A DNA stretch of 39,811 nucleotides from an uncultured Clostridia bacterium (lineage in GTDB: Bacteria > Bacillota > Clostridia > Christensenellales > Borkfalkiaceae): contig CANPXX010000009.1 in NCBI GenBank assembly GCA_947587085.1, positions 1-39,811 on the forward strand, read 5' to 3'. The position numbers and the translations under genes are program-made. This document shows positions 19,684 through 22,833 of the stretch, piece by piece. Below the pieces are notes generated by a model, which saw only the letters and a program-made list of their open reading frames with translations, was not told the DNA's origin and did no database searches. Position 1 is the first letter of the stretch. The number at the start of each line of letters is the position of its first letter.

Positions 19684-20139
19684 TCAGACTTCTATCAAAA
19701 GACACACCTTCGAGCACTTGGCGAAGGGTATGCGCTTTTCGCCTTGTTCCGTCCGCAGGGCGACCGTCTCCCCGTCGAAGGCGAGAAGCTCGCCCTCATA
19801 GTACTTTGCGCCCTCATAGGGGGCGTAGAGATGCACTTCCACCGCCTCGCCGAGGTGACGGTCGAAGTCCGCCTGTTTGCGGAAGGGACGGTCCAGCCCG
19901 GGTGAGGAGCAGTTGAGCGTGTACGGCTCGCCGAAGGTGGGGTCGAGCTCGTCGAGCGGGGCGTCGATCGCGCGGTGGAAGCGCTCGCAGAGCACGAGGT
20001 CCACCCCGCCCGGGGCGTCGATAAAGACGGTGAGCGCCCGCCCGCGCGCGTTCCACGCTACTTCCACGATCTCCACCCCCGTCTCCGCGGCGATGGGACG
20101 CAGAAATTCTTCGATCTCCGCAAGCGGCTTGACGCGCAT
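19684..20139 (-). CDS. rimP: Ribosome maturation factor RimP
   Basis: Needed for 30S subunit maturation. 151 aa. Typical blocks: GVEIVEVAW, a TVFIDAPGGVDLVLCERFHRAID stretch, and YTLNCSSPGLDRPFRKQADF (the conserved SPGLDRPL-type motif). The ATG at 20139 is chosen because GGGAGGGG lies directly upstream. A longer frame starting at TTG 20205 would begin two bases after the predicted transcription start. It is the first gene of the nusA-infB operon. Confidence 0.93.
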   Translation of the reverse strand: MRVKPLAEIEEFLRPIAAETGVEIVEVAWNARGRALTVFIDAPGGVDLVLCERFHRAIDAPLDELDPTFGEPYTLNCSSPGLDRPFRKQADFDRHLGEAVEVHLYAPYEGAKYYEGELLAFDGETVALRTEQGEKRIPFAKCSKVCLLIEV

Positions 20140-20160
20140 ATCCCCTCCCTCATAAAGAAA

Positions 20161-20182
20161 TGAGAGCGGAAGCCCGCCCTCA
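20161..20182 (-). promoter_or_regulatory. Leader hairpin between rimP promoter and SD
   Basis: On the transcript a 9-bp stem with one G-U pair (20161-20169 with 20174-20182) and a 4-nt loop; outer AAGAA/TTCTT pairing can extend it. It lies in the roughly 68-nt leader just upstream of the rimP SD. It is not followed by a T-run, so it is not a plain terminator. Confidence 0.45.
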
Positions 20183-20213
20183 ATCTCTTCTTTCAAATGG
20201 ATCAAGTATCTGC

Positions 20214-20242
20214 ATTATACCATGCCTTGCGCGAAAATGCAA
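20214..20242 (-). promoter_or_regulatory. Sigma-A promoter of the rimP-nusA-infB operon
   Basis: -35 TTGCAT (20237-20242), 17-bp spacer, consensus -10 TATAAT (20214-20219). Predicted start near 20207. It separates the polC-like gene from the translation operon. Confidence 0.78.
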
Positions 20243-20269
20243 GCGCTTTTGGGAAATTTTCTTAAATTT

Positions 20270-21778
20270 TTACCGCGGAAGTCCGTTTTTCATGCGCGTG
20301 AGCTCCAAAAAGATCTTCGCCGTGACAAATGCGTCGTCATAAGCGCGGTGGTGATGGAACTCGAACCCGAAGTGGTCCGCCACGGTGTTGAGCTTGTAGT
20401 TGCCAAGGCGGAGCATCTCCTGCGCGAAGGTGACCGTATCGTACTGCCGCTGGTCGAAGAGGAAGCCCTCCTTCTCGCCGTAGTAGCGGATGAACTTGCA
20501 GTCGAACTGCACGTTGTGCCCGACGAGCGCGCACCCCGCCGCGAACTTGTAGAAGTCCGCCATGACCGCGCCGACGGGCGGCGCGCCCACGAGCATCTCG
20601 TCGGTGATGCCCGTGAGTTCGATGATCTCCTGCGGGAGACGGACGGGACAGGCGACGAAGGAGGAGAAGCGCTCGGTGATGTTCCCCCCCGCGATCTTCA
20701 CCGCGCCGATCTCGATGATGCGGTCCATCGCCGCGGAGGACGAATTGCCGAGCCCCGTCGTTTCGAGGTCGAACACCACGAAATCGCGCTTCAAGACGGC
20801 TTCGGGCAGGGGCGCCGCGTCGAACAGCTTCGCCTGCACGAGGTCGTGCATGGGGACGGGGAATACGACGGAGTACGCCGCGGGCACGGGGCGGGAGGGG
20901 CGCTCCACGGGGGTGAACCCCTCGGGCGGGGCGCCGTAGTCGAGCATCTTCGCGCGGAAGGAGAGCCCGCCGTTGAAGAGCTCGTTGTCGCCCGTGAGGC
21001 AGACGCTGTCCCCCTGCCGCACGGCGCGGACCTTTTCGAGCGTCGCCTTTCGGGTGAAATAGGCAGTGCGGAGCGTCCCCGTGCCGTCCGAGAGGGCGAT
21101 CGAGAAATAGGGCTTGCCGTTCTTGGCGGTGCGCTCCTCGATGTAACTGACCGTGCCGCACACCGTGACGTTCGCGATCTCCTTGGTGAGGTCCGCGATA
21201 TACATGGCGCGGGAAGGCGCCGCCCCGTCCACGGCGGAATAGCCGTCGATCTCGAAGAAGCGCGGCGCGCGGATATATTCCTCGGGCGGGAGCTCCCGCT
21301 CGATCTCCTGCCGCTCCTTGGGCACGGCGCGCAGTTCCCCCAGCCAACAGCCGCAAAACTGCCTGCCGAGCTCCTCGGAGAGCGCGTCGATGACGCCGTC
21401 CTCCTTCCCCTTCGCGAACCCCGAGGCGTCCACGCCGAGATAGAACCTGCCGCCGCCCGCGTCCACCTCCGCGCCGATGTCCTCGGGCGAGACGAACGCC
21501 GCGAGGGCGGGGAAGCGCGTTTTGAGGATGTCCGCGACGGCGCGGCGGATCCCCTCCTCGCTCGGCACGGACTTGATCACTCGCGCCGAACCGCGCAACC
21601 CTTCGGGGGCATAGCGCGCCGAGACTTCGCTCGCATAGGCGACGTCCTCGCGCGAGTAGTTGGCGTCGGTGACGAGATGGAACACCGCCTCGTCCCCCTC
21701 CACCGTGATCTTTTTGAGGACGGCGCGGGAGAGCCCCTCCGCGCGCCTGATCTCGTCGAGATAGAGCTTGCTCTTCAT
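20270..21778 (-). CDS. PolC-like protein lacking PHP and polymerase domains (OB + 3'-5' exonuclease)
   Basis: 502 aa, located between ispG and rimP where Clostridia carry polC (about 1,400 aa or more). The first 200 residues resemble the PolC N-terminal region; an OB fold follows (about 203-282, NVTVCGTVSYIEER). A DnaQ-type exonuclease starts near 333: D337/E339 in FDLETTG, D426 in HNVQFD, and H477/D482 in HRAYDD, so the DEDDh site is intact. There is no PHP domain between OB and exonuclease, and translation stops cleanly after the exonuclease. Only about 130 nt separate it from rimP, with no polymerase relic. Likely a stand-alone proofreading exonuclease. The ATG overlaps the ispG stop by four bases. 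Confidence 0.8.
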   Translation of the reverse strand: MKSKLYLDEIRRAEGLSRAVLKKITVEGDEAVFHLVTDANYSREDVAYASEVSARYAPEGLRGSARVIKSVPSEEGIRRAVADILKTRFPALAAFVSPEDIGAEVDAGGGRFYLGVDASGFAKGKEDGVIDALSEELGRQFCGCWLGELRAVPKERQEIERELPPEEYIRAPRFFEIDGYSAVDGAAPSRAMYIADLTKEIANVTVCGTVSYIEERTAKNGKPYFSIALSDGTGTLRTAYFTRKATLEKVRAVRQGDSVCLTGDNELFNGGLSFRAKMLDYGAPPEGFTPVERPSRPVPAAYSVVFPVPMHDLVQAKLFDAAPLPEAVLKRDFVVFDLETTGLGNSSSAAMDRIIEIGAVKIAGGNITERFSSFVACPVRLPQEIIELTGITDEMLVGAPPVGAVMADFYKFAAGCALVGHNVQFDCKFIRYYGEKEGFLFDQRQYDTVTFAQEMLRLGNYKLNTVADHFGFEFHHHRAYDDAFVTAKIFLELTRMKNGLPR

Positions 21779-22833
21779 CGCCCGTTCCCCCGCTCCGCGA
21801 GCAGTTCTTCGAGACGGCGGAAGAACGCCGCCTCTGCCTCCGCCGCGGGAACGCGCACGGGCGCGGCGTCCCGCTCGAAGAGCACACAGTACTCCCCGCC
21901 CCCCGCGATGCCGAGGTCGCAGTCCTTCGCCTCGCCCGGTCCGTTCACCACGCAACCCATCACGGCGACTTTGAGCGGCGTGCGCACCCGCGCCACCCGC
22001 TCGCTGACCCGCGCGGCGAGTCCCATGCAATCATATCTGCAACGCCCGCACGTGGGGCAGGCGACCACTTCCACATACCCCTTTTCCAGCCCGCAGGCGC
22101 GGAGGATGTCGTGCGCGGCGTACACCTCCTCCACGGGGTCGGAGGAGAGGGAGACGCGGATGGTGTCGCCCACGCCGCCCAGCAGGAGGGAGCCGATGCC
22201 CACGCTGCTCTTGACGACGCCCATGCGCCCCACGCCCGCCTCCGTCACGCCGAGATGGAGCGGATAGTCCGTCTGCCGCGCGAGGAGGGAATACGCCTCC
22301 ACGGTGAGGGGGACGTCGGACGCCTTCACCGAGATGACGATGTTCTCCACGCCGTGCCGCTCGAAGGCGGCGACGTTGTTGAGAGCGCTCCCGACGAGGG
22401 CGCGGGCGCTCCTTCCGTAGCGGGCGAGCGCCTCCTTTTCGATGCTCCCCGTGTTCGCGCCCACCCGCACGGGCACGCCGTGCCGCTTCAAGCAGTCCGC
22501 CACATAGGCGAGCTCGCGCTCCCCCCCGATGTTGCCGGGGTTGACGCGCAGTTTATCCGCGCCCGACTCCACGGCGAGCACGGCAAGTTTGGCGGAAAAA
22601 TGGATGTCGGCGACGATGGGGACATGGACCCCCTCCCGTACCCGTCCGATGGCGCGCGCGTCCTCTTCGTCGAGCACGGCGACCCGCGCGAGATCGCAGC
22701 CCGCCTCCTCCATACGAAGAATTTGAGCGACGCTTGCCGCAACGTCGCTCGTTTTTACCGTGGTCATGCTCTGGACGGCGACGGGGGCGCGCCCGAGCGC
22801 GACCTCCCCGACCGTGACGATCTTCTTCGACAT
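21775..22833 (-). CDS. ispG: 4-hydroxy-3-methylbut-2-enyl-diphosphate synthase
   Basis: Reductive dehydration step of the MEP isoprenoid pathway; a [4Fe-4S] enzyme. 352 aa. The TIM-barrel part shows VAVQSMT, ADIHFSAKLA and RVNPGNIG; the iron-sulfur domain shows ACPTCGRC and GCVVNGPGEAKDCDLGIAGG, giving the three conserved cysteines and a glutamate. Spacing to nrdR is 18 nt. The order ispG then polC then rimP is the usual clostridial order. Confidence 0.95.
   Translation of the reverse strand: MSKKIVTVGEVALGRAPVAVQSMTTVKTSDVAASVAQILRMEEAGCDLARVAVLDEEDARAIGRVREGVHVPIVADIHFSAKLAVLAVESGADKLRVNPGNIGGERELAYVADCLKRHGVPVRVGANTGSIEKEALARYGRSARALVGSALNNVAAFERHGVENIVISVKASDVPLTVEAYSLLARQTDYPLHLGVTEAGVGRMGVVKSSVGIGSLLLGGVGDTIRVSLSSDPVEEVYAAHDILRACGLEKGYVEVVACPTCGRCRYDCMGLAARVSERVARVRTPLKVAVMGCVVNGPGEAKDCDLGIAGGGEYCVLFERDAAPVRVPAAEAEAAFFRRLEELLAERGNGR

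Follow-up and report, generated by a model that had tools for sequence, protein, structure and literature searches.

Related replicases and the gene at the polC locus

In Escherichia coli DNA polymerase III, the DEDDh exonuclease epsilon (DnaQ) is encoded apart from the polymerase, and its clamp-binding motif is located after the exonuclease domain. The alpha and epsilon subunits take up both pockets of the clamp, according to the available part of PMC11253446. In Bacillus subtilis, as described in the portion of PMC5627055 that was at hand, template, DnaE and PolC form a complex in which the PolC exonuclease proofreads DnaE in trans, and synthesis by DnaE is stimulated by a polymerase-deficient, exonuclease-proficient PolC, slightly more when the clamp is present. 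The accessible sections of PMC3919608 report that some Clostridia have a single DnaE1 only and that some clostridial PolCs are devoid of the exonuclease, and they propose a role in clamp-loader contact for the N-terminal region of PolC. This region is made of two domains related to domain V of tau according to an excerpt of PMC12926913, which also lists three polymerase sets, names groups of standalone DnaQ, including the mycobacterial and Treponema ones, and gives HHDHEH[C/H]DH as a signature of the PHP domain.

We analysed a window of 39,811 nucleotides (contig CANPXX010000009.1, positions 1 to 39,811) from an uncultured Clostridia bacterium. It carries a gene for a short protein that we call tPolC (truncated PolC), and the features of this gene and of its neighbours are the following.

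21775..22833, minus strand: ispG, upstream neighbour (ORF and homologues; named by reading of the sequence)
20270..21778, minus strand: tPolC, 502 aa, ATG start, overlapping the end of ispG
21215..21778, minus strand: PolC-type N-terminal region (NTD), residues 1-188 (hhalign and AlphaFold model)
20918..21214, minus strand: PolC-type OB domain, residues 189-287 (Pfam PF01336 and hhalign)
20792..20917, minus strand: linker, residues 288-329, occupying the place of PHP-N in PolC
20822..20836, minus strand: clamp-binding-like motif QAKLF, residues 315-319 (motif statistics)
20285..20791, minus strand: DEDDh exonuclease, residues 330-498 (PF00929, hhalign and catalytic residues)
20140..20269, minus strand: spacer between tPolC and rimP, 130 nt, too small for a polymerase relic (read from the sequence)
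19684..20139, minus strand: rimP, downstream neighbour, ATG start (ORF and homologues; named by reading of the sequence)

The tPolC gene is a single ORF of 502 codons plus a stop codon at 20270-20272, and its ATG at 21778 creates a 4-nt overlap with the 3' end of ispG. The likely start of rimP is the ATG at 20139, preceded by GGAGGGG; the ORF listing had placed a TTG start further upstream. The gene is thus found between ispG and rimP, as in the polC locus. Examination of 74 tPolC loci showed that ispG was directly upstream in 69, that rimP was downstream in 61 and that both were present in 58, several of the loci without both neighbours reaching the end of a contig. An assembly accident is contradicted by the repetition of this context across the 74 loci, and the local assembly deletion that the preliminary description had named as a danger was not borne out. 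In PolC loci of the same order, ispG was upstream in 26 of 30, and 10 of these 30 loci had rimP no more than 1.5 kb away on the downstream side. No polymerase relic was seen 3' of tPolC, either in the 130-nt spacer or in the 2-kb spacer between tPolC and rimP at locus L107. The latter spacer contains two ORFs (L107:4510-6350) that resemble, by eye, a uridine kinase and a zinc-ribbon protein. In the spacer of the window, a perfect extended -10 like sequence, TGgTATAAT, is present at 20222-20214 on the minus strand, and the promoter scan listed no site in 20140..20269. The genes from rimP onward may have their own promoter, judging from this extended -10 like sequence.

Domains of the 502-residue protein

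Profile comparisons with hhalign showed that the NTD of tPolC matched the NTD of PolC (P = 4e-12 over 138 columns), as opposed to the other PolC domains (P of at least 0.1); no Pfam model reached this region. The OB fold was recognized by PF01336 at residues 204-276 (29.1 bits) and matched the OB domain of PolC with P = 2.7e-21. The exonuclease was recognized by PF00929 at residues 334-490 (106.6 bits) and matched that of PolC with P = 1.5e-81. The five DEDDh residues (D337, E339, D426, H477 and D482) are all present in the protein of the window and were intact in 74 of the 74 sequences of set A1, window included, a count biased toward intact sites by the collection of most of this set through the exonuclease. 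The linker, of about 42 residues, had no significant similarity to the PHP-N of PolC (P = 0.03, hhalign), and HxHT or TDHG was found in none of the 74 linker sequences compared; within the linker, at least 90% of members retain Y302 and P307. The preliminary description had placed at these coordinates a gene encoding an N-terminal region, an OB fold and an intact DEDDh exonuclease, with PHP and polymerase gone, and the Pfam, hhalign and ORF results agree with it.

The top NCBIfam model was PolC, scoring 152.6 bits where the cut-off is 873, and the TIGR01405 model of PolC gave 137 bits (cut-off 1043), the ORF stopping after the exonuclease without a C-family polymerase domain. The general epsilon-family model TIGR00573 was above its cut-off (99.6 and 71.5 bits, respectively) and the epsilon model TIGR01406 was below (75.3 and 222.7 bits). 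The closest sequence match in the PDB was 2p1j, the PolC exonuclease of Thermotoga maritima. The AlphaFold model of the protein (pLDDT 91.9) showed the NTD as a confidently folded alpha/beta region and a linker almost without regular structure. Its residues 181-502 aligned on residues 218-603 of PolC 9qpc, and the fold matches included RNase T, TREX1 and ERI1 in a match list filled by the exonuclease part. Comparison of the window protein with that of locus L012 gave an identity of 0.58 for NTD and OB and of 0.78 for the exonuclease, so that, at the sequence level, the exonuclease is the slower-evolving part.

Comparison with PolC-type DNA polymerase III (NF001688, TIGR01405) showed that tPolC shares with it the NTD, the OB domain, the DEDDh exonuclease, the domain order and the place after ispG, but that it is devoid of the PHP domain, the polymerase and the C-terminal clamp motif, and has 502 aa rather than about 1,400-1,500. 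Instead, its linker carries a clamp-like motif that precedes the exonuclease; at this place, 0 of 61 PolCs had such a motif. Like the epsilon subunit of E. coli, tPolC is a DEDDh exonuclease whose gene is separate from that of the polymerase, but it is a trimmed PolC with NTD and OB, its motif is located before the exonuclease and not after, and the PHP site of its presumed partner DnaE is intact.

The correction of a separate DnaE by a PolC exonuclease, which we propose for tPolC, would be common with B. subtilis, where PolC is still the main polymerase, whereas just the proofreading part remains here (PMC5627055, portion at hand). Reduction of the PolC and DnaE1 pair is likewise common with the clostridial PolCs without the Exo insertion and with the single-DnaE1 Clostridia (PMC3919608, accessible sections). 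The former, having kept the polymerase and lost the exonuclease, are the mirror image of tPolC, and the latter are mentioned in those sections without a PolC remnant, unlike the genomes with tPolC. The standalone DnaQ proteins of mycobacteria and Treponema are also accessory exonucleases beside DnaE1, but the excerpt of PMC12926913 does not describe them as derived from PolC.

Distribution of PolC and of its short form

The genome of the window is a draft of 1.38 Mb in 80 contigs, 93.4% complete. A profile search of this genome showed that the sole C-family polymerase match was a 1,194-aa frame for DnaE; neither a PolC besides tPolC nor a PolC polymerase half was found in it. PolC was above the cut-off in 0 of 151 genomes of the window's family and in 3 of 14 control genomes. 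Thus the second polC that could have overturned the preliminary description did not appear, and the reliance on DnaE that it had suggested is supported. Its idea of a split replicase does not quite fit, since the polymerase half is lost and was not found elsewhere in the genome. In the class as a whole, 222 of 243 genomes exceeded the PolC cut-off, and for this reason PolC is presumably the older state.

We then sorted 151 genomes of the order, which we take to be the GTDB order Christensenellales, into 54 with PolC, 63 with full-length tPolC (a match to the short-form profile at 1e-100 or better), 14 with a tPolC whose catalytic site is ruined (a match beginning at position 1-10 and ending at position 324-461 of 506) and 20 with none of these. 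The first three sets had zero overlap. Catalytic residues were read in 32 of the 63 full-length genomes and in all 14 of the ruined-form genomes. Among the 20 genomes in no set, four had PolC fragments (G176, G196, G210 and G253), two turned out to have the ruined form (G165 and G248) and G231 matched the ruined-form profile over its full length. G188, 96% complete and from a family (f11) otherwise with PolC, had neither PolC above the cut-off nor tPolC; in the others, which are incomplete genomes, the short form or PolC was partial or missing. The tPolC lineage is therefore not local and spans many families of one order. The nearest named relative found was Candidatus Gallimonas gallistercoris (60% identity), placed by NCBI in Clostridia incertae sedis.

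Outside the order, we re-searched 12 genomes from other orders of the class, those that seemed to be without above-cut-off PolC or to have PolC in pieces, and saw among them no protein of about 500 aa with a clear NTD-OB-exonuclease layout; one of the 12 was above the PolC cut-off with its neighbours in the frame. In a phylum sample of 249 genomes, in which no other genome of the window's order was noticed, the only full-length tPolC match among the matches listed was the window's own.

The DnaE tree, for which 43 of 45 rows were taken and two fragments left out, parted 7 PolC-bearing from 36 PolC-less genomes by one branch with support of 100/100. The NTD and OB tree likewise parted 16 PolCs from the short forms once, with support of 100/100. 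The exonuclease tree, built from 81 of 153 sequences, grouped 32 short forms in one clade (98/97), and its backbone did not resolve the branching order of PolC and the other exonucleases relative to tPolC. The trees are unrooted and, as far as such sequence trees go, fit one truncation. The exonuclease tree that the preliminary description had suggested thus united the short proteins and did not tell PolC apart from other exonucleases as their nearest relative. Because of the backbone, this tree was dropped as the only proof of a PolC origin, which rests on domains and synteny. The NTD, the OB domain, the exonuclease and the chromosomal place are all those of PolC, and the derivation of the protein from PolC, at the polC locus, stands on the domain profile matches and on the ispG and rimP synteny.

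Linker motif, lost catalytic sites and possible function

The pattern Q..[LMI][FL] was present in the linker of 28 of 40 non-redundant members (below 50% identity), compared with a mean of 0.9 and a maximum of 4 in 1000 rounds of shuffled linkers. In the full set it was present in 45 of 74 linkers, compared with 1.4 in shuffles. Sequence windows outside the linker motif had it in 0-4 of 40 members. The C-terminal clamp motif of PolC was found in 25 of 30 PolCs of the order (with a looser pattern) and in 22 of 31 others. The Q, L and F of the linker motif recur while the residues around and within it vary, a pattern typical of short binding motifs; in 21 of the 74 members no Q pattern fitted. 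The motif, which the preliminary description did not contain, resembles sliding-clamp-binding motifs, and we infer from this resemblance that the protein may bind the clamp. In a group of f1, the family to which the window belongs (L055, L057, L061, L067, L068, L050 and others), V or E is found in place of Q (VKSVFD, RETTLFD) and the hydrophobic-F-D part is kept.

Examination of DnaE, the presumed partner, showed that ten checked residues of its PHP domain were present in 44 of 45 rows, the remaining row being a fragment without this region. By our own mapping onto the alignment, these ten would include the signature HHDHEH[C/H]DH. The PHP site is intact alike in PolC-bearing, short-form and ruined-form genomes, the window's included, so DnaE is not left without a proofreader and a second one is in principle unneeded. 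A clamp motif such as QMSLF was present in DnaE in 42 of 45 rows.

The 14 genomes with a ruined catalytic site belong to family f19 (8 genomes), family f16 (4) and genus g98 of family f32 (2). Their gene is located after ispG in 14 of 14 and rimP was found downstream in 12 of 14, with frames of 495-550 aa. Where intact sites have DEDHD, the catalytic positions carry HNIVT, YNLNI, ARLDE or SMTRI, among others; in that alignment, 13 of the 14 retain none of the five catalytic residues and L171 (DKAET) retains the first Asp. Two further f16 genomes read YRTDH and YKLDY. The DnaE tree, with 8 ruined-form genomes included, requires three catalytic losses, forced by well-supported branches, and the NTD and OB tree also gave three, two of them forced. 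All 14 ruined forms retain the linker residues Y302 and P307. The Q of the motif was present in 14 of 14 in one alignment and in 10 of 14 in another, the motif being often non-canonical (QxxF, then V, T or G). The dN/dS was below 1 in the pairs with finite dS, a weak indication given that dS was near saturation in most ruined pairs. In f16 the exonuclease was less constrained than NTD and OB (e.g., 0.57 and 0.33, respectively), whereas in the f32 pair it was more constrained (0.22 and 0.44). Since the protein was retained after three catalytic losses, proofreading cannot be its whole function, and something besides the nuclease was also worth keeping. The trans-acting proofreader proposed in the preliminary description is thus plausible for the window, where the site is intact, and falls short as a full account of the protein because of the three lineages with a ruined site.

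We consider it moderately probable that the polymerase and PHP domains of PolC were lost in a common ancestor shared by many families of the order, probably in a single event, and that the remainder persists as an accessory subunit serving the DnaE replicase. A more detailed form of this reading, which we put forward tentatively, is an ancient, one-time conversion of a replicative polymerase into a polymerase-free, clamp-tethered subunit of its former partner, in which an epsilon-like layout would have arisen by subtraction and by a new clamp motif, followed by three later pseudo-exonucleases with a holding role only. The linker motif would then hold the sliding clamp, and DnaE (QMSLF) and tPolC might each fill one pocket of the same clamp, by analogy with alpha and epsilon of E. 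coli. The PolC-type NTD would contact the clamp loader or DnaE, and the OB domain would handle single-stranded DNA. In the organism of the window, the exonuclease would remove the errors of DnaE in trans, beside the PHP proofreader of DnaE itself, whereas in the three lineages with a dead nuclease only the holding role would be left, a role that could outlive the nuclease.

Another reading makes of the protein mainly a non-catalytic replisome holder, acting on the clamp, the clamp loader and single-stranded DNA, with the exonuclease as an inherited extra even when intact. It is favoured by the persistence of the protein, still located after ispG and with a frame of 495-550 aa, through three losses of its catalytic site, and by the PHP site of DnaE, intact in all three kinds of genomes, but we consider it unlikely, as the catalytic residues persist throughout set A1 (gathered mostly through the exonuclease) and dN/dS in seven pairs with the window was 0.20-0.32 for the exonuclease and 0.34-0.52 for NTD and OB. 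By these substitution rates, the strongest constraint among the relatives of the window falls on the exonuclease, which suggests that the nuclease matters in this lineage. An exonuclease that left replication for general DNA repair or RNA processing, and is at the polC locus by chance, appears improbable; the many jobs of DEDDh exonucleases and the fold matches to RNase T, TREX1 and ERI1 agree with such a move, whereas the retention of the PolC NTD and OB, the clamp-like motif, the occurrence never alongside PolC and the keeping of ruined forms do not.

Two further readings fare worse. An unrelated DnaQ-type exonuclease inserted at the place of polC and fused to an OB domain would agree with the poorly resolved backbone of the exonuclease tree and with the TIGR00573 score, but it is very improbable in view of the matches of NTD and OB to those of PolC, of the best NCBIfam model and of the upstream neighbour, which is the same as that of PolC in sister families (the 26 of 30 PolC loci with ispG). 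An assembly error or a decaying pseudogene has a negligible probability even in a draft of 80 contigs, since length, place and catalytic residues are alike in many separately assembled genomes and dN/dS is below 1 in pairs with finite dS.

The reduction of PolC to its proofreading part was not found in the literature searched and may still be in print. What is new is the route by trimming of PolC, the linker motif and the later pseudo-exonucleases; the parts and the likely job were already familiar. These lineages amount to a natural test of what is worth keeping in a replicase: beside DnaE, many families could dispense with the PolC polymerase, whereas they kept its proofreading and holding part. 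The sharing of work between PolC and DnaE1 in Clostridia (PMC3919608, accessible sections) can be tested in lineages that dropped one of them. The protein may also add an independent second example of a proofreading subunit that plays a structural part at the clamp. We would expect the bacteria with tPolC to lack the target of the PolC inhibitors in clinical development (inhibitor named in the available part of PMC12592400).

Several minor observations were made during the searches. G413, which has PolC and belongs to another order of the class, carries a 481-aa frame with an exonuclease match. Three frames of 192-205 aa in the Bacillota family f143 (G565:C46:103554, G602:C18:397631 and G634:C268:802) matched the tPolC profile by an exonuclease at 218-226 bits. 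A 177-aa frame of another order (G371:C1:45540-46076), in a genome without PolC above the cut-off, had a PolC-type exonuclease match of 169 bits and is possibly, from its sequence, another PolC remnant. PolC matches extended over several frames in G492:C21:8133-11038 and G414:C15:10141-14165, by a broken gene, a frameshift or an assembly error. Within the order, L122 (G179, family f30) is a shorter, diverged member in a 466-aa frame that has the catalytic residues without the motif and is about 0.75 kb from rimP. The genome of the window contains two RNase_T-type proteins, tPolC and a weaker one at C1:4191-4676. The only change seen in DnaE in step with the loss of PolC was a set of short insertions at about residues 482-514 (L002 numbering), present in PolC-less genomes and mostly missing in the 7 PolC-bearing genomes compared.
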